Shown piece by piece: positions 2,900 to 51,900 of a DNA stretch of 64,000 bases (position 1 is its first letter; every line of letters starts with the position of its first letter). The DNA lies in assembly GCA_016490735.1 (NCBI GenBank), contig JAEMWC010000003.1, positions 2,666,001 to 2,730,000 on the forward strand, written 5' to 3'. Made by a program: the position numbers and the translations under genes. The DNA is from Pachyseris speciosa (Eukaryota > Cnidaria > Anthozoa > Scleractinia > Pachyseridae). The notes beneath the pieces are model-generated. The model did not search any database. It worked only from the letters and a program-made list of their open reading frames with translations, and was not told the DNA's origin.

Positions 2900-4000
2900 A
2901 GGTTAACTAATCGTTTAAATTGACTGAGAGATTTAGCTTCTCTCTCATCACAGGTTAGAGAGAACTGCTCTGCTACAGCTAAAGCTGTTTTTCATGAAAT
3001 TAGTTCTCGGAAACGAGACAAATAGTTTGTTACGCGTTTCATTTCGTTTAACAAATTTAGAGGATAAATATTCAGGAACAAGACCATTTAAACACTTGTA
3101 TACCATTAAGGCTTTCTGTGTTTGAAATTGAGTGCTCAAGTCTTTCCAATCGAGTTGCCTAATTAAGCAAGCATCACAGCTAGAAAAGGTTAAAGCGCGA
3201 GCGGCACAGTTCTGAAGCTTCTGTAGCCTGTCAAATAACGTTCCACCACAATTACCCCAGACAAGATTGCAATAATTGAAGTGAGATTGAATTAGTGCGT
3301 TGCATATATAATGAAGAGAAGGTGGGGGGACAAAAGGTCTAATTATTTTTATTGCTCCTAATCCCGGAAGCGACCTTCTTAGATGATTTATCAATGTGTA
3401 TTTGCCACCGTAGATCTTCGTCAATAAATATTCCAAGCGATTTAACAGAGGAAACATGTTCTATCGGAACATTATCAATCGAGAGCTTAAGTGGGTTCAA
3501 CAAAGTACTCAATTTTTGTCTAGAGCCAATTAGCATAAATTCAGTTTTGGCAGTGTTCATATGTTTATTGGAAATAAGCCATTTGTTTAGGTTATATAAA
3601 TCGTGATTCAGATTTAACTGTATTGAATTCATATCAAAGCCCGCATAAGTGATGTGGGTGTCATCAGCATACATCCTAGGCTGGCACGACTTTGCGGTCC
3701 CCCACATTAAGTGAACAGATTCTAGAAAGAGAACTATTAACGAGACATCGTTGTCTACAATTAGTTAAATATGACTTAAACCAATCAAGAGCTGTCTCTT
3801 TGTATTCCGTATTGGTTCATTTTAGATGAAAGGATATCATGGTCAACGTTGTCGAATGCCTTTCTTAAATCGAGAAAAACCACAGCATTAACATCAGTAC
3901 CACATGGTTTCGGTTTCATTTGAGTCAACGGCAATGGCGTCGTTTGAGAGGCGGGAAATGTGGCTTTCGCTTTCGTTTTCAGCATTAAGTAACCCACGAT
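2900..4000 (-). mobile_element. 5'-truncated non-LTR retrotransposon (LINE) reverse transcriptase fragment
   Basis: Minus-strand translation gives, in order, an RT motif VFLDLRKAFDNVDHDIL (near 3890-3840), the catalytic MYADDT (near 3675) and the RT thumb/C-terminal region. That last part (LRRSLPGLGAIKII, HFNYCNLVWGNC, LQKLQNCAARAL, CLNGLVPEYL) ends at a stop at 2948. The pieces lie in three frames (3997-3785, 3707-3339, 3457-2948), so the copy is frameshifted and inactive. The endonuclease domain is absent. Domain order and sequence style fit the CR1/L2-like clades common in cnidarians; the exact clade needs an alignment. Confidence 0.85.
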
Positions 4001-18006: not shown

Positions 18007-18327
18007 CTAGACGTTTTGAAATTGGCGTATATAACTTAAGCGACAGTGCGCAGTTTCCGAGGTATCCAGTCTTTCATACACCTCCACTCCACAATCTCCT
18101 CTTCCGCTAGCCTCTGGTAAGTCACTGAAAGTCAAGGGAGAGGACTCCATGGTTATAAAACACTCACCCAACTTAGTTTCGTCCTTAACTTCAGCCTTCC
18201 TCCTGATGCAAATGTCCCACAGTATTCCAGTTATGAACAATGCGCCCAGTACTCCAAGTGACAGGAACAGGAATTTTTTCACAAATGGCGTGGAGACGTC
18301 AAACAAGGTGATATCAATGGCGGGTTC
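18007..18327 (-). CDS. iGluR-like gene exon 6: M4 and C-terminal tail
   Basis: Acceptor CTTTTTGCATAAG, then [18 protein letters not shown] and the hydrophobic M4 ([20 protein letters not shown], followed by ICIRRK). A polar tail follows to the stop at 18007-18009. It enters in phase 0, compatible with exon 5. A further small exon between 19243 and 18327 cannot be excluded. Confidence 0.75.
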   Translation of the reverse strand, partial: EPAIDITLFDVSTPFVKKFLFLSLGVLGALFITGILWDICIRRKAEVKDETKLGECFITMESSPLTFSDLPEASGRGDCGVEVYERLDTSETAHCRLSYIRQFQNV

Positions 18328-21300: not shown

Positions 21301-24300
21301 GCACAGCTGACTCATGAACCAATTGGTTTTAAACATTTTCGACGTGGTAGTTTAAATATGATATAAAGAGAAATTTCCAGTGCTACGTCATCAGCATGCA
21401 CAATAGGAATATGAAGCACGCTCGGGCAATTGAATTTGACTGAGCGAATTTACCAGCTATGTTATAAAAACAAATTTCTAAAGAGACAAGACGCACGGTT
21501 TCAGCTAAAGATTGGAGATCACTCTTGATCATACCTTAATTAACGCTTACTGGGCCCCGCATCTAGATTAGTAACGAAGGATCTGAGTCGCAGTAGTCTA
21601 TTATTTTGTATCTATATCGTTGTCTTCAATATTTTTTTGGAGACAACACTAAAGTACCTAAAGTACTAAAGTACTCTTGATGGCTCTCACTAAGGTTAAA
21701 ACCATCACCAGGACGAATTGTAGATTACCGCGCCTGGCAACAGTTTAATTACAAACTATTACATGGCCGCCAAGCCAAATAATACCCGACAATTGTCCAA
21801 TGATCAAGTTTTAATGTATTTGAAACATTCTTTATTACCAGTAGGCTTGGCCTTCTCATCAAGAACATATTGGTATTCTGTTGTATTATCCAACACAGCA
21901 ACCTAATAAGAATTGAAAAATGAGGTTAATTCACTGTATTACTTGTTCATACTGCACTTGATAACTGGGATTACTAGGATGGGCTATAAGGTGAAGAGAA
22001 TTTCAGCTTGGTTGCAGAGATAACATGCATTTACCCAACATCGTTTAGGCAGCAATGAAAGGTATCTCTAAGTGATTGTTTTTGCTTTTGGTTATTACAC
22101 AGGTAAGTTGAATCTCCTTTTTTGTGATGTTGTGAAGTAAGTAGAAGTTATGATCCAGGTAGGACAGGCACGCGGATATGTTTTTTTTAATCCTCTGTTT
22201 GACTATTCAGAACTGATTCCGTTCACCCGTAACCAGGTTTGCTTAGCCAGTGAGAGCTCACCTTAAAGTTTAACGTTACCTAAGAGAACATGACCATATT
22301 TGACAGTCAAGTGAAATTAGAGTTCGCCATCGCAGTCAGCAGTCTTTGCATTATTTACATATTAATGAATTGTTTGAAACTACTCGAACAACCGGCTTTA
22401 ATCACTTCCACACCGATTCCCCTTTAACTGCGTTAAGACGCCAGGCTTAGCAGTGCATGGTGAGGCTCTTTATTGCGTTAAATGATCAATTCAGCGCTCT
22501 TATGGGAGTAAATATGGGTCAAAGCTATATCTGAAAACGCCTCCAAATTCCTTTTCTTTAAAACAGCTCGGTGTGTTTTATTTTGAACCGTCTTTAATGA
22601 TATCCTCGGAACAAAAATGCTTGGTTTTGGGGATTGAGTAGATGATATATGCTTAAGTCTTCCATACCATTACAAGATATTATTTTAACAATAAAATATT
22701 GCGGTCACTCATGTCATGGACAGTCTTGATAAACATTTTCAGGTAACGTTTCATACTGACCTTTAATTCATTGTTGAGACGAAACATATTCTTTTTCACT
22801 GACAAAGCTGTCAAGGTTGAGGTGACATTAGCCGTAAATATTGCGATAAAAATGACACCAAATAAAATCCAGACGACGGAGAAAATGCGAGCGATTGCCG
22901 ACTTTGGTGCTTTGTCGCCATAACTATGAAAACACAAAATGTATCAAAAAGATTAAACAGAAGACGTGATAGAGGAGCTCCGGCGGCCCGAATGGCTACC
23001 AAGCGGAGCACCATACTCATGGGAACCGTTAATTGCTTTTCTTGTGGTGATCATGGCTAGCGATATTGCTCGTTTGCGCGTACGCAAGACGACGACGTCG
23101 CCCAATAATTAATAATATCCCAATAATAATAATAATAACGATAATTTTTCTCAAAGGATTAGTTAAATTGAGTGAAATAGGAAATTTAGAAGATTTAATA
23201 AAGGTTTAAAATTGGAATTTGAAGTTAAAAATTAGTAGACGGATACCAAATAGTTCCCCAGCAACCTGCAGTGCCCTTGTGGGTGTCAACTAACTGGAAG
23301 TGTTTCAAAACATTTTTACTCCATAAGAATCCCTTCCTCAAACTCCTTAAAATTTCACACAAATTCACGTTTACCCCCACCTTAAGGGATATAATTAGAA
23401 AGCTTCTATTGACACCTACATCCAATTTCCAGTTCTAGATATATCTATTTGATATAGATACGAGTTAAAACGCGGATTTTAACATGTTAATATAACAATG
23501 GAAAAAAACAATTCGTGCAAAATGAGCTCCCCCGTCTCTGCCCCGCCCCAAACCCCCTCACGCCCTCCTCTTTTTGTCAAGCCGCATAGTCGACTGTATT
23601 TGGAACACAGTATCAAGCGAAAGGACAGGATAATTGGATGAGAACGATTAGTATTTTTCTTACTGCATAATGTAGAAACCGTTAATTACCCGCTAATAAA
23701 TATTTTCTTGTGGATATTTTACCACCATCCTCGGCACATAATCAACGAGTTTTATCCATAACGGATTGTTGAATACTTTGCTGTTTTGATTTTAAATCAG
23801 TGAACGGATTGTTCACGGTTTCAATGAGGAAATATGAAGAAAAATGCAAGTTGAATTTGTCGCCATTTGCTTTGCGAAACCGGGGACAAGCGACAACTCG
23901 GCGGGATGAGCCAGATCAAAAGCTCGATAAACATAATTGACTAATGAGAGGCATCATTTAACAATAGCGCGATTTCAAAACAAAAACAAACGACCGCGTC
24001 GGATCAAGGGCGACAATGGGCCATTAAAAATCTATATATTGTTAAATAAAATATCGGTTTAGTGGTATAGCAGGTTTCACGGATCCTGCAACGCGATGTA
24101 ATTACATTGGGTCATTTATTAGCGAAAAAGATCAATGAGTATAACTATGACTATGGCCATGATGATGACTATCATGACACCGATAATGATGCTGATGCTG
24201 ATGACAACTGTAGCAATAACAATGTCAATAATAATAGCTATAGCAAGGGCAATATAATGAGTTCTCGTAAGGAAATAGGTAAATTTACACTTAAAGTTTG

Positions 24301-27300
24301 TTACAGATTTTCCTTACCCTACGGTGGTCATAGAAATAAAAGACCACCAAAATCCATCCCATGATCCTTTGATGAACGAACGGGGAAACTGCTTACTATT
24401 TCCGTATTTCTCCTAAGGAACATGGGGATAAAAAAAATTAAATTCAAGATTAAAAAAAATTATTTTTTTCTTAACTGTGGAGCCTATACTTTTCTCATTG
24501 ACCATCCACATTTCTCAAATATTAAAGAAATAAAAAAAAAAAAAAAAAAAAAAAAGAAAAGAAAGAAAGAAAGAAAGGAAAAGCGCGCCGAGTGCATTGT
24601 TGAGTTATATAAGCACGCGGGAATTTTTAAGAACACGAAAGAAATGCATAGAGAAGCACGAGCCGTAACGTGATCTTATTGCGTACGTAAACCGTTTCTA
24701 CATAAACAGCGTCAAATGGTGGTCCTACCATCGAATTCATGATTATCAGCTAGCCTTAATTAGACCAAAGTGTTAACTTTTTTGCGTAAAGGAATGTTTT
24801 CCTGGAGATCTATCGTCATTCAACTGATTCTCTGTTGATAGATCAATCGATCAACTTACTGACTGATGGGCTGACGGACAGACGGACTCCCGGACTGACT
24901 GACGGAATGAAGGATCGACACTGATTACTCGGGCTTCCCACGGGAAGACGGACTCCCTTATATGGGCTATATAGGTATGTGCGGCCCCAACAGGTATGAT
25001 GTTTTTAGTTGTTTTGGCCTGAAATAGGATACTGATTTCACAATTCAAAAGAGTCTAGGGTGCTCGTTGTCCTAATATTTGCGGGCAAATTGTTTCAAAC
25101 TTTGGGCGCGGCAACTGAGAAAGCTCGGTCCCCATATGTGGAGGTGAAGGATTTGGGAACAACTAGAAGATCTTGTGTCGCAGGACGCAAGGAACGTGTT
25201 GAAAAATACGTTTATAGCAGGTCGCTAAGATATTTCAGAGCACAGCCATTGATAATTTTAAAGGTCATCAATAGAACTTTAAATATTATTCTGTGTTCAA
25301 CAGGGAGCCAGTGTAGTTTTTCCGATGATGGAGTTATGTCGTTACAGGCTCTACTTTGCAGAACTAATCCGATTAGTTCTGAAAAGCAAAGTAAAGTTGC
25401 CGCAGAAGTCTGTAGACGCTGTAATTTGTTAATCTCCTTGGATGACAGTCCATGCAATAAACTATTGCAATAGTCTAGCCTTGATGTAATGAAGGCATGG
25501 ACTAGTCGCTCCGTATTAGTCTTATCATATCCAAATATTTCCTAACTCTTTCGATGTTTCTTAGAGCAAGAGAAGTGGAGCGACACATACTGCTACTATG
25601 GGTAGACATAGTAAGATGGTCGTCAAAAACTACTCCGAGGTTCCTCGCTTCTTTACTGGTGGATAATACATGATGACTGACGTTAATAACAGCTAAATAA
25701 ATAAATGAAGGCGGACTTGCCTGGATTTCAGAAATATAATGTTCAAGTTTAGTAAAGGCCTTGTGTCTGCTATTTGACTTCGACCATTTAGGTCCAAAAT
25801 AGGATATGGTTTGTGCACTCTAGTGATGAATTGGGCATGTTTTTTTTTTCTTTTTTAAGAGAAGCTACTTGTCAATAAGATAATCGATATTGTAGTACTG
25901 TCAAACCAGCGAGATTAAACAGGGTTTTTTGAACAGAAAAGGGGTAATCAAATAGTTAACACTCCCCTGCAGTGAAACCGCAAATCGCCATCGATGATGG
26001 CCTAAGAGCAGGTCTACGACGTCATTCCTTAGCGACCATCTGGAGTACATTTTTTTAATATCAGGTTCTCTCTGTCTCGTTATGATTCATCATTAGGCAA
26101 TAAGAACATCAATTGCGCCCTTCTTTTATTCTTTTAAATATGTTTACGCCAACCGTGTACGTAAAATAGGTCTGAAATCGTGTATCGAATTTGTGGTCAG
26201 GTCTGAAATAGGGTAGGGAAAACCGCAGAGTTTGGTCTGAAATAGGGTAAGGGTTTCAGGTAGCGGGCTGCACACCCCAATCAATTTTTTTAACCCCCCC
26301 CCCCCCTCAGGGCATACACTTCCCCTGTCTGGTTTGCAACTCGTCGAGATATAGCTCTAGATTATCTCATAGCAAGGCGAATGACAAGAATTTCTGCGGC
26401 TAGAATAATCTGCATTCATAAAAAGCTGACAAAATGTCAATCTCCACACAACGCGACTCATTTCAGAGGTCAACTTATTCAGATACCTGGTATCTTTTGC
26501 TTCTTTGACTTTCTCTTTGCTGAATAGCTTACGGCTCCAACTGTGCATTCCTACAATCGAAACGCCGCCTTCTTCAGAAACGTTTTGCTCACAACATGTG
26601 CTTCTGCTAAGTGATTCAAAGACATAGAACGTTGTCTCCACATAACAACCCTCCATCTTAACGAAACTGGACTCGTTGTTCATCGAGAGAATGAAGATTA
26701 TTAAAAAGATTGAGACGAGCAATGCTGTGGTAATTGTGAGTGTTGTGTGACGAACGACGTACACTCCAGAATACCGCTAACTTAGCTGAGCATTATGTAC
26801 AAGTTGTTTGTATTGTGGCGGTTTGTGTACCTGGTGTGATGAAAAGGACATTTATTTTATTAGTGTAGTGGCGTCTCCGTGGCGTTCGTTGTATAACAGA
26901 AGTCAGTGTAGGAGCGAAAGCATTCACAAGATTCAGAGATTATTTTCTTGAATCAATTGTCTTATATCGGAACAAAAGCTTTTTTTCTCAGAACAGAACT
27001 GATCGGAAATCAAGGATGAACATCTTAAAGCAAGAGAAGGTCTTAAGTTTTTCTAATTTTAACAACCGCTTAATTTGAGAAATTTTGCTAAAATTGAATA
27101 TTTTTTCCCGAAATTAAGAACTTAAAAGTGAGAAAGATTTTACGCTTACTACCGAATTTTTGTCCTAAAATTAAGAAATCGGGTTTTAGAGTGTGAATAA
27201 CTAAAGTACGGAATATTACACAACCCTGAGACTTTGAAAGGTCATTTATTTACTATGTTTTTTTATTTCCTTGCATTTGTTGCAAATATCTGTACATGAT

Positions 27301-36162: not shown

Positions 36163-36179
36163 TACCAAGGTTACCAGTA

Positions 36180-39100
36180 ACATCCAGATGTATTGTCAGA
36201 GTGTGCTGCTGTTGCCTTCACCAATTCTTGTTTTCATTTTAACTGTATCACCAAGTATCACCAAGGTTACCAGTGGCATTCAGATGTATCGTCGTAGTGT
36301 GCTACTGTTGCCTTTAACAATTCTTTTTTTCATTTTCATTTTAACTACTCAAGTATCACCAAGGTTACCAGTGGCATCCAGATGTTTCGTCGGAGTGTGC
36401 TCCTGTTGCCTATAACATTTCTACTTTTCATTTTCATTTTAACTGCTCAAGTATCACCAAGGTTACAAGTGGCATCCAGATGTTTTGTCAGGGTGTGCTA
36501 CTGTTGCCTTTAACAATTCTTGTTTTCATTTTAATTCTCTCTGCTCAACTATCACCAAGGTTACCAGTGGCATCCAGATGTTTCGTCGGGGTGTGCTACT
36601 GTCGCCTTTAACAATTCTTGTTTTCATTTTCATTTTAACTGCTCAAGTATCGCCAAGGTTACCAGTGGCATCCAGATGTTTCGTCGGAGTGTGCTACTGT
36701 TGCCTATAACAATTCTTCTTTTCATTTTCATTATAACTGTTCAACTATCACCAAGGTTAACAGTGGCAACCAGATGTTTCGTCGGGGTGTGCTACTGTTG
36801 CCTTTAACAATTCTTGTTTTCATTTTCATTATAACTGTTCAAGTATCACCAAGGTTACCAGTGGCATCCAGATGTTTCGTCTGAGTGTGCTACTGTTGCC
36901 TATACCAATTCTTATTTTCATTTTCATTATAACTGTTCAAGTATCACCAAGATTACCAGTGGAATCCAGATGTTTCGTCGGAGTGTCCTACTGTTGCCTT
37001 TAACAATTCTTGTTTTCATTTTCATTATAACTGTTCAAGTATCACCAAGGTTAACAGTGGAATCCATGTGTTTCGTCGAAAGGAGCTACTGTTGCCTTTA
37101 ACAATTATTATTTTCATTTTCATTATAACTGTTCAAGTATCACCAAGGTTACCAGTGGCATCCAGATGTTTCGTCGGAGTGTGCTACTGTTGCCTTTAAC
37201 AATTCTTGTTTTCATTTTCATTATAACTGTTCAAGTATCACCAAGGTTACCAGTGGCATCCAAATATTTTGTCGGAGTGTGCTACTGTTGCCTATAACAA
37301 TTCTTCTTTCCATTTTCATTTTAACTGCTCAAGTATCGCCAAGGTCACCAGTGGCATCCAGATGTTTCGTCGGAGCGTGCTACTGTTGCCTATAACAATT
37401 CTTATTTTCATTTTAATTATAACTGTTCAACTATCACCAAGGTTACCAGTGGCATCCAGATGTTTCGTCGGAGTGTCCTACTGTTGCCTTTAACAATTCT
37501 TGTTTTCATTTTCATTTTAACTGTTCAAGTATCACCAAGGTTCACAGTGGAATCCATGTGTTTCGTCGGAAGGAGCTACTGTTGCCTTTAACAATTCTAC
37601 TTTTCATTTTCATTTTAACTGCTCAAGCATCACCAAGGTTACCAGTGGCATCCAGATGTTTTGTCGGGGTGTGCTACTGTTCCCTGTAACAATTCTTGTT
37701 TTCATTTTTTATTTTAACTGTTCAAGCATCACCAAGGTTACCAGTGGCATCCAGATGTTTTGTCGGGGTGCGCTACTGTTGCCTGTAACAATTCTTCTTT
37801 TCAGTTTCATTTTCACTGCCAAGTATCACCAAGGTTACCAGTGGCATCCAGATGTTTCGTCTGAATGTGCTACTGTTGCCTATAACCATTCTTCTTTTCA
37901 TTTTCATTTTAACTGCTCAAGTATCACCAAGGTTACCAGTGGCATCCAGATGTATCGTCTGAGTGTGCTACTCTTGACTATAACAATTCTACTTTTCATT
38001 TTCATTTTAACTGCTCAAGTATCACCAAGGTTACGAGTGGCATCCAGATGTTTCGTCGGAGTGTGCTACTGTTGCCTTTAACAATTCTTGTTTTCATTTT
38101 CATTATAACTGTTCAACTATCACCAAGGTTACCAGTGGCATCCAGATGTTTCGTCTGAGTGTGCTACTGTTGCCTATAACAATTCTTATTTTTACTTTCA
38201 CGATAACTGTTCAACTATCACCAAGGTTACCAGTGGCATCCACAGATGTTTTGTCGGGGTGCGCTACTGTTGCCTGTAACAATTCTTCTTTTCAGTTTCA
38301 TTTTCACTGCCAAGTATCACCAAGGTTACCAGTGGCATCCAGATGTTTCGTCTGAATGTGCTACTGTTGCCTATAACCATTCTTCTTTTCATTTTCATTT
38401 TAACTGCTCAAGTATCACCAAGGTTACCAGTGGCATCCAGATGTATCGTCTGAGTGTGCTACTCTTGACTATAACAATTCTACTTTTCATTTTCATTTTA
38501 ACTGCTCAAGTATCACCAAGGTTACGAGTGGCATCCAGATGTTTCGTCGGAGTGTGCTACTGTTGCCTTTAACAATTCTTGTTTTCATTTTCATTATAAC
38601 TGTTCAAGTATCACCAAGGTTACCAGTGGCATCCAGATGTTTCGTCGGAGTGTGCTACTGTTGCCTTTAACAATTCTTGTTTTCATTTTCATTATAACTG
38701 TTTAACTATCACCAAGGTTACCAGTGGCATCCAGATGTTTCGTCTGAGTGTGCTACTGTTGCCTTTAACAATTCTTGGTTTCATTTTCACTATAACTGTT
38801 CAAGTATCACCAAGGTTGCCAGTGGCATCCAGATGTTTTGTCGGAGTGTGCTACTGTTGCCTATAACAATTCTACTTTTTATTTTCATTTTAACTGCTCA
38901 AGTATCACCAAGTTTACCAGTAGCTTCCAGATGTTTCGTTGGAGTGTGCTACTGTTGCCTTTAACAATTCTTGTTTTCATTTTCATTATAACTTTTCAAG
39001 TATCACCAAGGTTACCAGTGGGATCCAGATGTTTCGTCTGAGTGTGCTACTGTTGCCTAGAACAATTCTTATATTCATTTTCTTTATAACTGTTCAACTA

Positions 39101-42100
39101 TCACCAAGGTTACCAGTGGCATCAAGATGTTTTGTCGGAGTGTGCTACTGTTGCCTATAACAATTCTTATTTTCATTTTAATTATAACTGTTCAACTATC
39201 ACCAAGGTTACCAGTGGCATCCAGATGTTTCGTCGGCGTGTACTACTGTTGCCTTTAACAATTCTTGTTTTTATTTTAATTATAACTGTTCAAGTATCAC
39301 CAAGGTTACCAGTGGCATCCAGATGTTTCGTCGGGGTGTGCTACTGTTGCCTTTAACAATTCTTGTTTTCATTTTCATTATAACTGTTCAAGTATCACCA
39401 AGGTTACCAGTGGCATCAAGATGTTTCGTCTGAGTGTTCTACTGTTGCCTATAACAATTCGTATTTTCATTTTCATTATAATTGTTCAACTATCACCAAG
39501 GTTAGCAGTGGCATCCAGATGTTTCGTCGGAGTGTGCTACTGTGGCCTTTAACAATTCTTGTTTTCATTTTCATTATAACTGTTCAACTATCACCAAGGT
39601 TACCAGTGGCATCTAGATGTTTCGTCGGAGTGTGCTACTGTTGCCTTTAACAATTATTGTTTTCATTTTCATTATAACTGTTCAAGTATCACCAAGGTTA
39701 CCAGTGGCATCCAGATGTTTCGTCGGAGTGTGCTACTGTTGCCTTTAACAATTCTTGTTTTCATTTTCATTATAACTGTTCAAGTATCACCAAGGTTACC
39801 AGTTGCATCCAGATGTTTCGTCTGAGTGTGCTACTGTTGCCTATAACAATTCTTATATTCATTTTCTTTATAACTGTTCAACTATCACCAAGGTTACCAG
39901 TGGCATCCAGATGTTTTGTCGGAGTGTGCTACGTTGGCCGTTAACAATTGTTGTTTTCATTTTCACTATAACTGTTCAAGTATCACCAAGGTGACCAGTG
40001 GCATCGAGATGTTTCGTCGGAGTGTGCTACTGTTGCCTTTAACAATTCTTGTTTTCATTTTCATTATAACTGTTCAAGTAGCACCAAGGTTACCAGTGCA
40101 ACCAGATCTTTCGTCGGAGTGTGCTACTGTTGCATTTAACAATTCTTGTTTTCATTTTCATTATAACTGTTCAAGTATCACCAAGGTTACCAGTGGCATC
40201 CAGATGTTTCGTCGGAGTGTGCTACTGTTGCCTATAACAATTCTTATTTTCATTTTCATTATAACTGTTCAACTATCACCAAGGTTACTAGTGGCAACCA
40301 GATCTTTCGTCGGAGTGTGCTACTGTTGCCTTTAACAATTCTTGTTTTCATTTTCATTATAACTGTTCAACTATCACCAAGGTTACCAGTGGCATCTAGA
40401 TGTTTCGTCGGAGTGTGCTACTGTTGCCTTTAACAATTATTGTTTTCATTTTCATTATAACTGTTCAAGTATCACCAAGGTTACCAGTGGCATCCAGATG
40501 TTTCGTCGGAGTGTGCTACTGTTGCCTTTAACAATTCTTGTTTTCATTTTCATTATAACTGTTCAAGTATCACCAAGGTTACCAGTTGCATCCAGATGTT
40601 TCGTCTGAGTGTGCTACTGTTGCCTATAACAATTCTTATATTCATTTTCTTTATAACTGTTCAACTATCACCAAGGTTACCAGTGGCATCCAGATGTTTT
40701 GTCGGAGTGTGCTACGTTGGCCGTTAACAATTGTTGTTTTCATTTTCACTATAACTGTTCAAGTATCACCAAGGTGACCAGTGGCATCGAGATGTTTCGT
40801 CGGAGTGTGCTACTGTTGCCTTTAACAATTCTTGTTTTCATTTTCATTATAACTGTTCAAGTAGCACCAAGGTTACCAGTGCAACCAGATCTTTCGTCGG
40901 AGTGTGCTACTGTTGCATTTAACAATTCTTGTTTTCATTTTCATTATAACTGTTCAAGTAGCACCAAGGTTACCAGTGCAACCAGATCTTTCGTCGGAGT
41001 GTGCTACTGTTGCATTTAACAATTCTTGTTTTCATTTTCATTATAACTGTTCAAGTATCACCAAGGTTACCAGTGGCATCCAGATGTTTCGTCGGAGTGT
41101 GCTACTGTTGCCTATAACAATTCTTATTTTCATTTTCATTATAACTGTTCAACTATCACCAAGGTTACTAGTGGCAACCAGATCTTTCGTCGGAGTGTGC
41201 TACTGTTGCCTTTAACAATTCTTGTTTTCATTTTCATTATAACTGTTCAACTATCACCAAAGGTATCAGTGGCATCCAGATGTTTCGTCGAAGTGTGCTA
41301 CTGTTGCCTTTAACAATTCTTGTTTTCATTTTCATTATAACTGTTCAAGTATCACCAAGGTTACCAGTGGCATCCAGATGTTTCGTCGGAGTGTGCTACT
41401 GTTGCCTATAACAATTCTTATATTCGTTTTCTTTATAACTGTTCAACTATCACCAAGGTTACCAGTGGCATCCATATGTTTCGTCGGAGTGTGCTACTGT
41501 TGCCTTTAACAATTCTTGTTTTCATTTTCACTATAACTGTTCAAGTATCACCAAGGTTACCAGTGGCATCCAGATGTTTCGTCGGAGTGTGCTACTGTTG
41601 CCTATAACAATTGTTCTTTTCATTTTCATTTTAACTGCTCAAGTATTACCAAGGTTACCAGTGGAATCCAGATGTTTTGTCGGAGTGTGCTATTGTTGCC
41701 TTTAACAATTCTACTTTGCATTTTCATTTTAACTGCTCAAGTATCACCAAGGTTACCAGTGGCATCCAGATGTTTAGTCCGAGTGTGCTATTGTTGCCTA
41801 TAACAATTCTACTTTTCATTTTCATTTTAACTGCTCAAGTATCACCAAGGTTAGCAGTGGCATCCAGATGTTTCAACGGAGTGTGCTACTGTTGCCTTTA
41901 AGAATTGTTGTTTTCGTTTTCATTTTAACTGTTTAAGTCTCACCAAGGTTACCATTGCATCCACATGTATCGTCGGAGTGTGCTAGTGTTGTCTTTAACA
42001 ATTGTTGTTTTCATTTTCATTTTAACTGTTCAAGTCTGACCAAGTTTAACAGTGGCATCCACATGTATCGTCGGAGTGTGCTAGTGTTGGCCTTAAGAAT

Positions 42101-42245
42101 TGTTGTTTTCATTTTAACCTTTCAAGTATCTCCAAGGTTACCAGTTGTATCCATATGTATCGCCAGAGTGGCTACTGTTGCCTTTAACAATTCTTGTTTT
42201 TATTTCATTTTAACTATTGAAGTATCACCAAGGTTACTAGTGGCA
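36180..42245. repeat. 98-bp tandem satellite array, about 60 units
   Basis: The unit runs AAGGTTACCAGTGGCATCC-AGATGTTTCGTCGGAGTGTG-CTACTGTTGCCTTTAACAAT-TCTTGTTTTCATTTTCATTA-TAACTGTTCAAGTATCACC, counted at 98 bases in a typical copy. Units fall into recurring subtypes (TTTAACAATTCTTG versus TATAACAATTCTTA/C; CAAGTATC versus CAACTATC). Edge units are more diverged (36180-36350, 41930-42245). Higher-order duplications are visible: about 490 bp (37755 to 38247) and 783 bp (39803 to 40586). Since 98 is not a multiple of 3, the open frames seen here are by-products. Confidence 0.95.
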
Positions 42246-42249
42246 TGAG

Positions 42250-42815
42250 ATGTCACGAATAGTCCACTTGTCTTGTGATTTAAAATCAAACTAATTGGAA
42301 CGGAATTTTTGTGACTGCCAATGATAGATAGTAGTCAACTTACATGTACTTCCGTACTTAAAGTTCCCCAAAATTCGTGAGGTGGAACAGGCTTAGATTA
42401 GGCATTGTAATATTTTGAGTTTGTGCCACACGTTACCCACTTCGTTTGGTGTTATAATGAATCGAAACACAAAATAATGTTGTTTGAGCTATAGTAAATG
42501 TTTATAATGAAAAAAAAAATGTGATTAACAGATGAGAATTAAAAGGGTGAGTTTTAAAAGAAACTGTCAGGTGCTGCGTCTTTTGGGGAGTGAAACACGA
42601 GAATATGGTTTGTCAACGGAATTGACCACCGTAAAGAGATTCAAAAAGCTGACGTTTCTAGTGTTTGCCCTTCCACAGATCGCATCGAGGAATTGCGGGT
42701 TATGTATGGTTTGTGCACAGCATCTGGAGCTACGTGAAAAACGGAAATAAATAGAATGAAAAGCGTTCATTGATACGATTTGAAAGATGAATTTTTGCTC
42801 TGTATTTTTCCCCCT
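42250..42815. other. Unassigned flank of the satellite
   Basis: AT-rich sequence with a small plus-strand ORF at 42532-42750 lacking any recognised motif. No gene is supported. Confidence 0.35.
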
Positions 42816-45705: not shown

Positions 45706-45772
45706 GGTTTAAATTCTTGCGCGCAAATTCGCTCGCGAAGTTTGCAGCCGAGCTTCGATGTGTTAAACAGTC

Positions 45773-47949
45773 ATGTCTGGACTCAATTTCGAGAAAGACC
45801 TTGAAAAGGCCTTACAGGAAAGTCTTTCTGCATTTCCAGATGTAAATGACTTGAAGGCTGAACAAAAGTTAGTCGTGGAAAAAATTGTTGAAAAAAGAGA
45901 TGTTTTTGCCCAGTTGCCTACCGGATTCGGCAAGAGCTTAACCTTTCAGGTATTGCCAGCCGTGTGTAAATATCTGTTTACTCTGGGCCACAAATTTCCG
46001 GAGAACCCTTTAGTTGTGGTCGTTTGTCCACTTTTAGCCATCATGGAAGACCAGGTTAAGTGGTTGAGGTCATTAGGTTTGAAGGCTGCTTTTGTTGGGG
46101 AAAGCAAAGCAAAAGACAAACAGATACTAGATGGCCAATTAAATTTTAACTTCCTTTATGGAAGCCCAGAGTCGTTGGTTGGCGATGAACGATTCAGAGC
46201 TATGTTTTCTAAGGAGTTTTACCAGTCCAATACGGTCGCTGTTGTCTGCGATGAGGTGCACACCGTGGTTCATTGGTAAGTGCACATTTTTATAAAGTGG
46301 CACAGTCATTATGAAGATGTGTTGTGTTTCAAGCAGCAAGGAAATATCTTGTGCTAGATAATGGTAATCTAGATTTAATTTTTGTCATAGTTTTGAACTG
46401 TTTTTACTGCCAAAACAATTAGGAATTTTGAATTTTATACTAGGTCATCTGGGGTTGAATCCCAGGTTTTAAATTTTCTCATCTAGATAGTCATGTTAAC
46501 ATTATTTTGTATACATGTAGCTACTCAGGTTGTGGGCTTGTTTGTGTGAGTTGTTTATTTCAAAGCTACATGTACATGTACATTGTAGTAACTGACTCGG
46601 TGAACTGTATGACTGAGAATGGTGTGTCAACAGGTGGTTATACATGGTCTTTCCACACAACACATTTCCAGTGTGTGAGAAACTAACAGAACACGACAAG
46701 ATACTTAGTTAATGGTAAGCATTGTCATTATTTTTAACTCTTCAGGGGAGAGGGCAGTGGTAAGAAGAACCCATTTAGAAAGTGGTGTGGTTTCGTGGGA
46801 GAAATCAGGTCCCTTCTTCCTGGTGTACCACTGTTAGCACTGACAGCAACAGCAACTGCCACAACAAGAAAGAAAATCCTGAGTGTTCTTGCTTTTAACC
46901 ATGGCATTGAGATTGTGTTGAGTCCAGATAGAAAGAATGTAAAGCTCTGTGTCAAAAAGGTAACAGATGACATTTCCCAGAATTTTTCATGGCTTGCAAA
47001 AGAAATTGAAATGAAAGGTGTAGCATGCCCAAAAACATTAATTTATGTCAGGGATTATCACAACTGTGGGGAAATCTACAGTTTTTTTATGCACACATTA
47101 GGCACTAAAGCATATTGGCCAACAGGGGCCAGTAAAAAATCTGCTAACTGAATGATAGCAATGTATCATAGTGGAACTGTAGGTAACGTAAAAGATCATG
47201 TGTTATCCTCCCTGAAAGATTCTCAAGGCAAAGTTAGAATTGTAATTGCCACAAGTGCTCTACATGTAGGTATGGGTGTAGACATCAAAGGGTTATATCG
47301 CATTATCAATTATGGACCCCCAGCTGATATTGAGTCATATGTCCAGGCCTTTGGCAGAGCAGGAAGGGATGGGAAAAATTCAGAAGCCCTACTGATATAC
47401 CACGGTCGCCAACTTCGCCTTTGTGAACCAGAGATGCTTGATTTTCTGAAGTCTGAAACCTGTCGGCGACTGAAAATTCTTGCCTTGTTTGAGGATACAG
47501 GTCAAAACAGAGCTGTTTTCCCCAAGCATCTGTGTTGTGATATCTGTGCTAAGGACTGTGAGTGTGAGGAGACAGAATGCCACAACTGTGAAGAAAGCAT
47601 GGTTTCTCTCATGTCCAAGGAAACAGAGCCTACCCAGGGAAATAATGCCCCAAGAAGAGATGTATCAGAAGCTCAAAGGAAACAACTGGAAGAACTGCTT
47701 AAGGACTGTCAAGACAAAATGAGACAGGAAGTTGAACAATCAAACCTTCACTGCCTCTTCACTAGTATTGACCATCTTACTTGTTTCTCTAACAGTCTTA
47801 TAGAGGATGTTATCACTAACTGTGAACAATTATATTCAGTTGACAGCATCCTTGAGAACATTTGTGTGTGGAGTGTTGATCATGCCTTTAAAATTTGTAG
47901 TTGCCTTAAAAGAGTATTCGAGGACCTTCAAGAAGAGGATGATGGGTGA
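45773..47949 (+). pseudogene. RecQ-like DExH helicase of the large transposon (one nonsense codon)
   Basis: Exon 1 is 45773-46275 (donor GTAAGT) and exon 2 is 46746-47949 (acceptor CTCTTCAG), about 568 codons. Helicase motifs appear in order: LPTGFGKS (residues 48-55), VVCPLLAIMEDQ (motif Ia area), DEVH (160-163), LLALTATATA (motif III), IATSALHVGMGVDIKG (V) and QAFGRAGRDG (VI). A Cys cluster (CRRLKILALFED ... HLCCDICAKDC) resembles the RecQ zinc-binding subdomain. It would be an ATP-driven 3'-5' DNA unwinding enzyme aiding transposition (family knowledge plus inference). A single in-frame TGA at 47149-47151 interrupts it between motifs III and V; the expected codon is CGA, so a CpG transition is likely. 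Everything else stays open. Confidence 0.88.
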
Positions 47950-48917: not shown

Positions 48918-51900
48918 CTACTGCAGAGCTACCCAGTTCTTCTTGTGTTTTGTTAACCAAATATTAAGATTTTTAAAATCAAGTGCAGAGATGGGATCTT
49001 TTGGAATGGTTCCAATGCCTTTGTGTGTCCTTCCAGAAATTTCCTGGAGTGCATTAACTTTCTGCAGAGTTTCAACAACAGCAAAGACATCTCCATCTTT
49101 CCTTCTCTTGTGTTTTGATGATCCCTTACAAAGATCATTTTCCTGGTCAAAATTTTGCACAATGTTTTTAACCGGATTGGCTGCTCGGCTGTATGCCTGA
49201 GCAGAATTAAAATTAAGGTTGGCTCCATGAGCATACATCAAGTCTTTTGTTTCTCTGATGTTGTGCTCCATTACTTGATCTATAGCAACATTTCTTCCCA
49301 CTCCACCTTTCAGATTTATTGTTCGATTCCATCTCAGGGAATGGGCTTCTCTAGGTGTGAGCAATGAATGGAGCTGTGCATGCATTCGTATGGCAGCTAG
49401 GGCATACTTTGTTTTCCCACACACCTTAAACAACAACATCAGAAATTTCCAAATGTACTCAGTCCTTCCACCATCACCCTCTTTGATGGCATCCTGGAAG
49501 TCTCTCAGGAGCAGGCCAGATTTGAGAATGTTATGCGAGTAATTGAAGATGCCATCTTCATTTCTTGGATTTGGAGGACTTCTCACAGGGTTGTGCTCTT
49601 GAATTATTATGCCATGGACACTCACCTCATGGTTATCGCGCCTTTTTTCTTGGATGTAGGTCTTGTCACATCCGGGATGTCGACAGCTGTGACATGGCTG
49701 GCATTGGCCATCTGGATCACTTAAGGCATCCCGTAACAGCAACGTTTCTGGCTGAACCTTTAGGAGAATAAACTTGTCCACCATGTTTCCAACTTGCTCA
49801 AACAGTTGTGAACCTCCACACGTACCTTCGTCTACAGCTGGGACATTTTTAGATGGATTGTCATTTGGAGAATGCATGCCAAAATACTCCATGGCAGCAT
49901 AAATAACATATCCATCCAGCACAGTACTAAAGAATGCCTCACATCCATGATAAGATTTTGTTACCTTTTCATTCACATCTTTTCTGTTGAGCATGCACTT
50001 CAGTTGGTATAGAGTACCTGTGTCACCCGCACTATTTGACTTGAACATATAATCAAAAATCATCTGAAAAAAAAGCCGTACATCAAGGACAGTGTTTCTT
50101 CATGAAAGTGCTCTATAAATAACACAACAAAGTCAACATTTCAGTAGTTAATATCTATTTATCAGTATTCAACAATTGATGAACATGAAATCACCTGCAG
50201 AATATTCATTTCACAATGAAAGTCTTCATGTTTCAAAATGAGTCCCTCAAGCCTCTCAAAAGGAGTGTCTGAGTCAGCAACTGAAGCAGCAGCACTAACA
50301 CCACGTTCAACCGTTAAGTGATCTCCACCGAAGGCAACCTTATGAAGAATTTTGTCTTCTTCTTCTCCCTCTGCTGTAGTGCTTTTGTACTTTGGAACAT
50401 ACTCATTGCAGTATTGGAGGATTTCCAGCATTTCATGACTTTTGTTTTCATTCTTGTTGAGAATTCCAAGGGGTACCTAATTGAGATTAGAGTATTTCTT
50501 ATACATACATGTACCATAAACCAGCAGACAGATCATGTCAAAACTCAAAATTGCCATGAGCTTAACATATCCTGTTACATTACTTTTCTTCCTTCAGCAA
50601 GAAACATGTTCCTGAGTATGCTACAGTCTAACATACAGTGTAATAATGTTAATTAATAATCCAAAAATCTTTTAAAACCAATAAATTAATCCATCAACTG
50701 TCACTTAGATGCACACTGTATTTACAGTCTAAAATTAATATTTACAAAATTTGAATTTGACAGTCATTTATCCCATTTTGTTTTGGGCTTCCCTTGGAAC
50801 TTATTTTACTGTTAATTAACATTATAAGTTCATAACTTACAACTTCAGATTGCTGCTTCATTTCTTTACTGAACTGGTGAGGAATGTGACTTGTGACCAT
50901 CTTCGAAAACTGTTTGAAATACTTGCAGTACTTGATGAGTGTGCGTGACACTAATATTATGTAGTCATGACGCAACTTTGAATGTTCCTCAGTTGATGGA
51001 AGGAAACTAGAATTGGGTAAGTCCATGATTGGTCTAATTGGCTGATCATCAGGCAAGTCCCAGTCACTGACTCGGTTGTGGTAGCATACACATTAAACCA
51101 GTGAATAGATTCAGTGTCCCGCTGTGTTGAGTAAACAGAGGGCCTTCTTATCCAATCTAAGTTGTCCCCATTCAATCCATAGTCAATAGGAGCACCACTG
51201 ACTGAAATTCTCTGGTCATTATAAATCATTACTTCCTGCAATTCTGATTCTGACTCTGGTGACACTGATGACATACTGCAAGTTACTGAATGGCTCTCAT
51301 TAGGACCTAAAAACAGAGAAAATATTAATATTTTCTGCATTTAATATAATCTTTATACTACATTTTCCAAGTCCGTATGATGTAATGGCATTGCACTCAC
51401 ATGAAATAGTGGAAGAAGACTGACTGCATGTGTGACTGTTGTCAGATACTGATGAGTGGCTTTCACAACCTGAAATTCATCATGTATTGTTTTAGGATCT
51501 TAGCATTGTCATCATAGTTATGATAATCATAAATACTGTTCCATACTATTGAACATGTGTTTGGATCTCAAGCACAGAAAAAGTAACCTGAGTGATCACC
51601 TGTAATACAGAAGAAAACATTTCAGTATTTCTCAAAACTACTGTAACACTTTATGAAAGCATTCTAATCCATAGATTTTGCACCATTAAATCAAATCAAC
51701 TTAAGTGATATACTATAATTATAATAATTATGTCAATTGGTGTAACATTATGTATGTTATTTTTTACCTCACTGTAGTTGTGTTTTCAAATAATGAAAGT
51801 CATACCAAATTGTATATCCATCTGTGACCTATTATGTCCTCCGGTTTCTGACTCAACTGACTCCTGAGCTACTAGAGCACATGCCTGTTTACAGCATGTA

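Follow-up and report, generated by a model that had tools for sequence, protein, structure and literature searches.

Glutamate receptors with a potassium-channel selectivity filter are represented, in the sections consulted of two papers, by GluR0 and by AvGluR1 (PMC12332018, PMC11479355). A survey of 2010 placed the combination of a glutamate-binding site with a K+ filter in bacteria only, to the extent that its authors could tell and in the portion of the text available to us (PMC2950845). In the parts accessible to us, two classifications of cnidarian ionotropic glutamate receptors (iGluRs) mention no such filter (PMC6307864, PMC12226733), and the terms 'GluR0', 'potassium' and 'selectivity filter' are absent from the main text of the former. 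Here we describe a gene of the coral Pachyseris speciosa that lies on the minus strand of a 64,000-nucleotide stretch of assembly GCA_016490735.1 (contig JAEMWC010000003.1, positions 2,666,001 to 2,730,000; hereafter the window, whose positions serve as coordinates). We consider it quite probable that this is an animal gene whose product, of iGluR fold, forms a subunit of a K+ channel that is tetrameric and gated from outside the cell.

The K+ filter is formed across a splice junction. By open-frame and splice-site reading, exon 2 (24412-24318, minus strand) ends in ATG ACC ACC GTA GG before the donor gtaagg and encodes the residues up to SMTTVG, while exon 3 (22923-22761, minus strand) continues after the acceptor ttttcatag with T TAT GGC GAC AAA and encodes YGDKAPKS. 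The GT-AG intron splits the codon of the filter glycine, with two bases from exon 2 and one from exon 3, and the joined exons of the window copy give TTVGYGD. The exon ends and the predicted intron agree in sequence, phase and place with the 24318/22923 junction put forward in an earlier note on this DNA. Three observations argue that the join is more than chance: on exons 2, 3 and 4 joined (107 residues), Pfam scores Lig_chan (40.1 bits) and Ion_trans_2 (62 bits) both above their cut-offs; neighbouring copies of the gene have their filter split by the same intron; and T[TS]VGYGD is present in 118 of 120 listed relatives. An accidental joining of two exons was considered and is ruled out by the structure shared with the neighbouring copies.

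The two exons of the earlier note are thus real, but they are only a portion of a gene of seven exons, all on the minus strand. Exon 1 (30117-29638), identified from its open frame, its donor, its hydrophobic M1 and its homology to exon 1 of the neighbouring copies C, E and G, encodes a signal peptide (by eye), the S1 half of the ligand-binding domain and M1, and ends in GCATTG before the phase 0 donor gtaagt. Exon 2 carries the pore helix and a phase 2 donor, and exon 3 carries the remainder of the filter and M3, with matches to Ion_trans_2 and Lig_chan. The start of S2 lies on exon 4 (21902-21839) and its main part, including VDGMLLDHY with the conserved aspartate, on exon 5 (19484-19243), followed by M4 and the beginning of a cytoplasmic tail on exon 6 (18327-18168). 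Exon 7 (15283-15096), recognized because it resembles the final exon, likewise a separate one, of copies C, E and G, has a phase 1 acceptor (gcag) and encodes a C-terminal helix, coiled-coil-like by eye, that ends in DQKILKE and a stop codon. A first model, in which exon 6 was read through to 18007, was replaced since the neighbouring copies have the donor at 18168 and a seventh exon. The whole-protein Pfam and PDB phmmer runs, the searches for relatives and for the cluster, the alignment of the S1 arginine, the profile comparison and the first tree used this first model; the comparison with copies C and G, the residue counts, the second tree and the hydropathy analysis used the revised one. 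The final predicted model has 463 residues and no internal stop, frameshift or broken GT-AG site. At the level of the reading frame, the turn to an intact paralogue that the earlier note had proposed is therefore unneeded, the window copy being open across all seven exons.

On the whole first-model protein, Pfam reports Ion_trans_2 at 58.3 bits and Lig_chan at 44.3 bits (cut-off 30.8), and a phmmer search of the PDB returned K+ channels mainly on the pore and the glutamate receptor GluN1 over residues 81-239. In the search of the PDB with a family profile, among the best 60 of 324 chains, K+ channels are confined to positions ~181-264, the pore part, and GluN1 chains match collinearly from S1 through M4, one instance being 105-444. 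The AlphaFold model of the relative P0006 contains a clamshell S1/S2 domain, for which a GluR0-type clamshell is the best structural match, and a helix at 445-481 that matches the C-terminal tail. With the fold taken from P0006 and the sequence order from the family profiles, clamshell halves S1 and S2 flank M1-P-M3 in order. Aligned with YTANLAAFLT of the animal AKDF receptors, M3 of the window copy keeps TAN alone of a gate motif like SYTANLAAF. The window gene and its relatives of ~480 residues start shortly before S1 and have no amino-terminal domain. Both the S1-M1-pore-M3-S2-M4 layout around a K+ filter and the missing amino-terminal domain had been proposed in the earlier note, and the S1-to-M4 match, the P0006 fold and the start of the gene bear them out.

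The same data bear on the possibility that these are exons of an ordinary voltage-gated K+ (Kv) channel, which we judge highly improbable. The pore helix and filter do match Kv channels well, and the automatic database names of the relatives P0017, P0026 and P0058 are those of Kv channels (labels such as Kv subfamily F or B). However, a voltage sensor (four helices before the pore) was sought in the window copy by hydropathy and Pfam and none was seen: only M1, M3 and M4 pass as hydrophobic segments, and the Pfam Ion_trans match is limited to 122-236 of its 241 positions. The window protein instead has its pore flanked by ligand-binding halves, as the clamshell of P0006 and the pore-limited matches of the K+ channels indicate, and the case in which all exons are ordinary Kv sequence with no S1/S2 similarity, raised in the earlier note and checked here, is ruled out, provided that the S1/S2 assignment is correct, by the S1-to-M4 match of GluN1 among the best 60 of 324 chains in the family profile search.

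A protein search returned 221 relatives, of which 120 are listed and form the basis of the figures below; 14 of the listed proteins look bacterial. Among listed rows that bear an animal name, all are cnidarian, from Oculina, Montipora, Pocillopora, Acropora, Stylophora, Porites, Actinia, Paramuricea, Rhopilema, Hydractinia and Clytia; many further rows stem from environmental or read collections. A second search with diverged members, which scored only the 7996 candidates having most words in common, gave 107 proteins and added Nematostella and Xenia; beyond cnidarians it found mostly bacterial binding-protein channels, then K+ channels, and one tardigrade BTB-Kv protein covering 11% of the query. 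Judged by their sequences, predicted relatives therefore occur in several cnidarian classes and are not peculiar to one genome. The full-length relatives P0002, P0009 and P0016 lie on contigs of 1.8-2.4 kb, shorter than the genomic copies G (6.6 kb), C (10.6 kb) and A (15 kb), which suggests that they are spliced transcripts. Some members have additional ectodomains: P0245 (Nematostella LOC5501882) and P0028 are K+-filter receptors with an N-terminal CUB and Ig domain, and P0251 (Stylophora LOC111338361) has a fibronectin III domain in their place.

In profile comparisons, the coral-type profile including the window copy matched bacterial GluR0-like channels with E 6e-38 over 287 columns and animal AKDF receptors with E 8e-8 over 271 columns, and the jellyfish-type and hydrozoan-type profiles matched the bacterial profile with E 2e-34 and 1e-32. 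When the pore was cut out and the window copy excluded, the coral-type binding domain still matched the bacterial one (94.7%, E 6e-8, 185 columns), with 0.1-0.2% in a reversed control. The family was also placed in two trees of hand-picked sequences. The first combines 28 of the relatives listed and the first model of the window protein with 8 iGluRs, 5 bacterial proteins and 34 bacterial open frames out of 76, and the second has 20 relatives, 3 copies, 7 iGluRs and 28 bacterial rows; both omit NMDA, epsilon, plant and AvGluR1 rows. In both, the cnidarian family is a single fully supported group apart from the 8 or 7 AKDF-type receptors, and in the second it stands outside the animal AKDF clade of 7 rows as a separate 100/100 group. 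Long-branch warnings attach to both trees, the bootstrap of the second had not settled and the root is unknown. A topology with all bacterial rows on one side was not rejected (approximately unbiased test, p-AU 0.397), and the family may either have come from bacteria or share its descent with other animal receptors.

Compared with the described systems, the cnidarian family thus resembles GluR0-type channels (Group 1 of Ger et al. 2010, PMC2950845, in the sections consulted; GluR0 of Synechocystis) in its clamshell S1/S2, its K+ filter of the TxVGYG type, the absence of an amino-terminal domain and its strongest profile match. It differs in that the gene is spliced and has an M4 (exon 6) and a cytoplasmic helical tail, whereas GluR0-type channels are without M4; in addition, the family forms a group of its own, and the window copy lacks the conserved S1 arginine. 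AvGluR1, from the rotifer Adineta vaga, is likewise an animal iGluR-type channel with a K+ filter and a four-pass layout according to the available parts of two papers (PMC12332018, PMC11479355), and has the eukaryotic iGluR architecture (PMC12332018), whereas the window gene and the coral-type members appear by sequence to be without an amino-terminal domain; the AvGluR1 sequence itself was not aligned. GluR0 and AvGluR1 had been named as the closest analogues in the earlier note, and the layout, the filter and the GluR0-type profile and fold matches agree with that choice. AvGluR1 presumably has an amino-terminal domain. With AKDF and NMDA receptors the family shares the S1-M1-P-M3-S2-M4 order, TAN in M3 and the overall fold, but it has a K+ filter rather than a Q/R/N pore and no amino-terminal domain, and it stands apart from the AKDF receptors in a tree that holds no NMDA or epsilon rows. 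As predicted from sequence and from the P0006 model, the cnidarian family joins a GluR0-like clamshell, a TTVGYGD filter, an M4 of eukaryotic type and a helical tail in the cytoplasm.

The gene belongs to a cluster. A search of the window together with the 200 kb that follow on its right found seven copies, A (that of the window) to G. Full models with all seven exons could be built for copies C and G; in C, the intron that follows exon 5 starts with GC, not GT. Copy B, on the plus strand, has two in-frame stops, copies D and F are incomplete among the matches, and exons 4 and 5 of E were not found. Both sides of the filter-splitting intron are present in four copies (A, C, E, G), whilst D and F show one side of it. 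Exons 2 and 4 measure 95 and 64 nt in A, C and G alike, and exon 3 measures 163, 160 and 160 nt, respectively. Within this local tandem array, the window copy is the diverged member. Other cnidarians probably have such arrays too, as members lie on same-sized contigs or have near-consecutive gene numbers in Rhopilema (P0041, P0091, P0241, P0246), EukProt (gene19199-19205), Oculina (P0001, P0003, P0008, P0015) and Stylophora (P0011, P0012, P0017, P0020).

Several results weigh against the reading given at the outset and are taken together here. The acceptor of exon 6 is uncertain, at 18327 or at the in-frame 18381, the former being nearer the length of the relatives. The AlphaFold model is that of P0006 and not of the window protein, and its query-normalised TM-scores to whole iGluR chains are 0.31-0.38. 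In two relatives with ectodomains, Lig_chan falls under its cut-off (P0245, 29.2 bits; P0251, 22.6 bits). The match to AKDF receptors is weak for the jellyfish-type profile (22.3%) and the hydrozoan-type profile (73.0%) even with the pore, as it is for the pore-masked coral-type binding domain (23.6%, 97 columns). Residues of the ligand site point the same way in S1. They were counted in 82 rows, 19 coral-type and 63 others, drawn from the 106 listed relatives without a bacterial look by requiring the filter and a length of 420 residues or more, a rule that drops P0013 and P0017 among P0001-P0021. The agonist-binding arginine, which we take to be R485 of GluA2, is found within one column in 16 of the 19 coral-type relatives, in all four of the bacterial rows examined and also in C and G, but in only 14 of the 63 other relatives, and the window copy has a histidine at the aligned position. 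It also lacks ~17 S1 residues present in copy C. At the S2 acidic site, presumably E705 of GluA2, an aspartate stands in the window copy, in 18 of the 19 coral-type relatives and in 50 of the 63 others. Since the arginine is so rare outside the coral-type members, their ligand may not be an alpha-amino acid, and the ligands of the whole family may extend beyond this class. The window copy may have changed its ligand or may be a non-binding subunit, and its opening by glutamate or another amino acid, as supposed in the earlier note, is unsupported given the arginine-to-histidine change and the shortened S1.

These features lend some weight to the idea that the window copy is a decaying or non-binding duplicate, at most a structural or dominant-negative subunit, or untranscribed, with copies C, G and the relatives elsewhere being the functional ones; we think this unlikely. 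Beside the altered S1 and an exon 6 acceptor shifted relative to the neighbours, the nonsynonymous distance (dN) of A to C and to G exceeds that between C and G in all six stretches compared, and copy B of the same cluster carries stops. Set against this, the seven exons of A are free of stops, frameshifts and broken GT-AG sites, the pore and the S2 aspartate are kept, and copy G is likewise short in S1, by 13 residues at its end and thus elsewhere, yet is otherwise complete. The ratio of dN to synonymous distance (dN/dS) of A versus C and G is 0.15-0.24 for the pore, 0.17-0.29 for M1 and 0.17-0.26 for S2, and against G alone 0.19 for S1 and 0.35 for M4, synonymous sites in S1 and M4 being saturated between A and C, which also counts against the reading favoured here. 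The C-terminal tail is loosely constrained (0.43-0.69). The signal peptide of A falls below the hydropathy threshold and those of C and G above it. Long-term constraint on the window copy is likely from these comparisons, and a recent loss of its function is possible.

By analogy with the established working of iGluRs and GluR0, a small ligand would close the clamshell of a tetrameric channel, M3 would be pulled via its TAN-type bundle, and the pore would open. The TTVGYGD filter would then pass K+, whose exit would hyperpolarise the cell; K+ selectivity and an inhibitory effect are what the filter predicts, and the receptor would probably quiet cells rather than excite them. Instead of acting as an inhibitory neurotransmitter receptor, a channel of the same architecture may sense chemicals from food or the environment, or may serve K+ homeostasis as reported for cyanobacterial GluR0, an alternative that we hold to be possible but rather doubtful. 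It draws on the strong variation of the ligand residues across the family, on tandem arrays, which we infer to be typical of chemoreceptors, and on GluR0 mutants that implicate volume regulation under KCl stress, in the part of the report consulted (PMC13099474). As a wider and tentative proposal, a little better placed than this alternative, cnidarians would possess, across the phylum, a family of ligand-gated K+ channels with an inhibitory effect. Its ancestry would be GluR0-like, and its acquisition or retention would predate the split of the classes. The family would have gained M4, introns, a cytoplasmic helical tail and sometimes ectodomains of the CUB, Ig or fibronectin kind, multiplied in tandem arrays and formed a second ligand-gated system, based on K+ and opposing the ordinary glutamate receptors.

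Elsewhere, the window contains a 98-bp tandem repeat of 62 copies with 90% matches (36164-42253), DEAD and Helicase_C open frames at 45767-47949 on the plus strand that are probably one gene and that we read as a RecQ-like helicase, and a DUF6589 open frame (E 4e-31) at 48918-50099 on the minus strand. Reverse-transcriptase-like remnants (by eye) lie on the minus strand at 25212-25819, within intron 1 of the receptor gene, and at 2948-3764. The same genome also encodes a canonical AKDF-type receptor as a single open frame of 975 residues (L001, G000:C355:782016-782855); over the 411 residues that were searched, it is 81% identical to a receptor of Oculina.

No account of a cnidarian K+-filter family was found in the open-licence PMC literature, among the matches listed, and the 'NMDA-Cnidaria' group of PMC6307864, as described in the sections available, may overlap with it. 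The proteins are already deposited, unnamed or misnamed, so that what would be new is their nature and not their existence; labels such as Kv subfamily F or 'uncharacterized' conceal the family in databases. Nematostella, Clytia and Hydractinia, all of them laboratory species, have members of the family. If the reading is true, two questions would be opened to testing: whether glutamate receptors arose from the pores of K+ channels fused to binding proteins, and by what means early nervous systems achieved fast inhibition.

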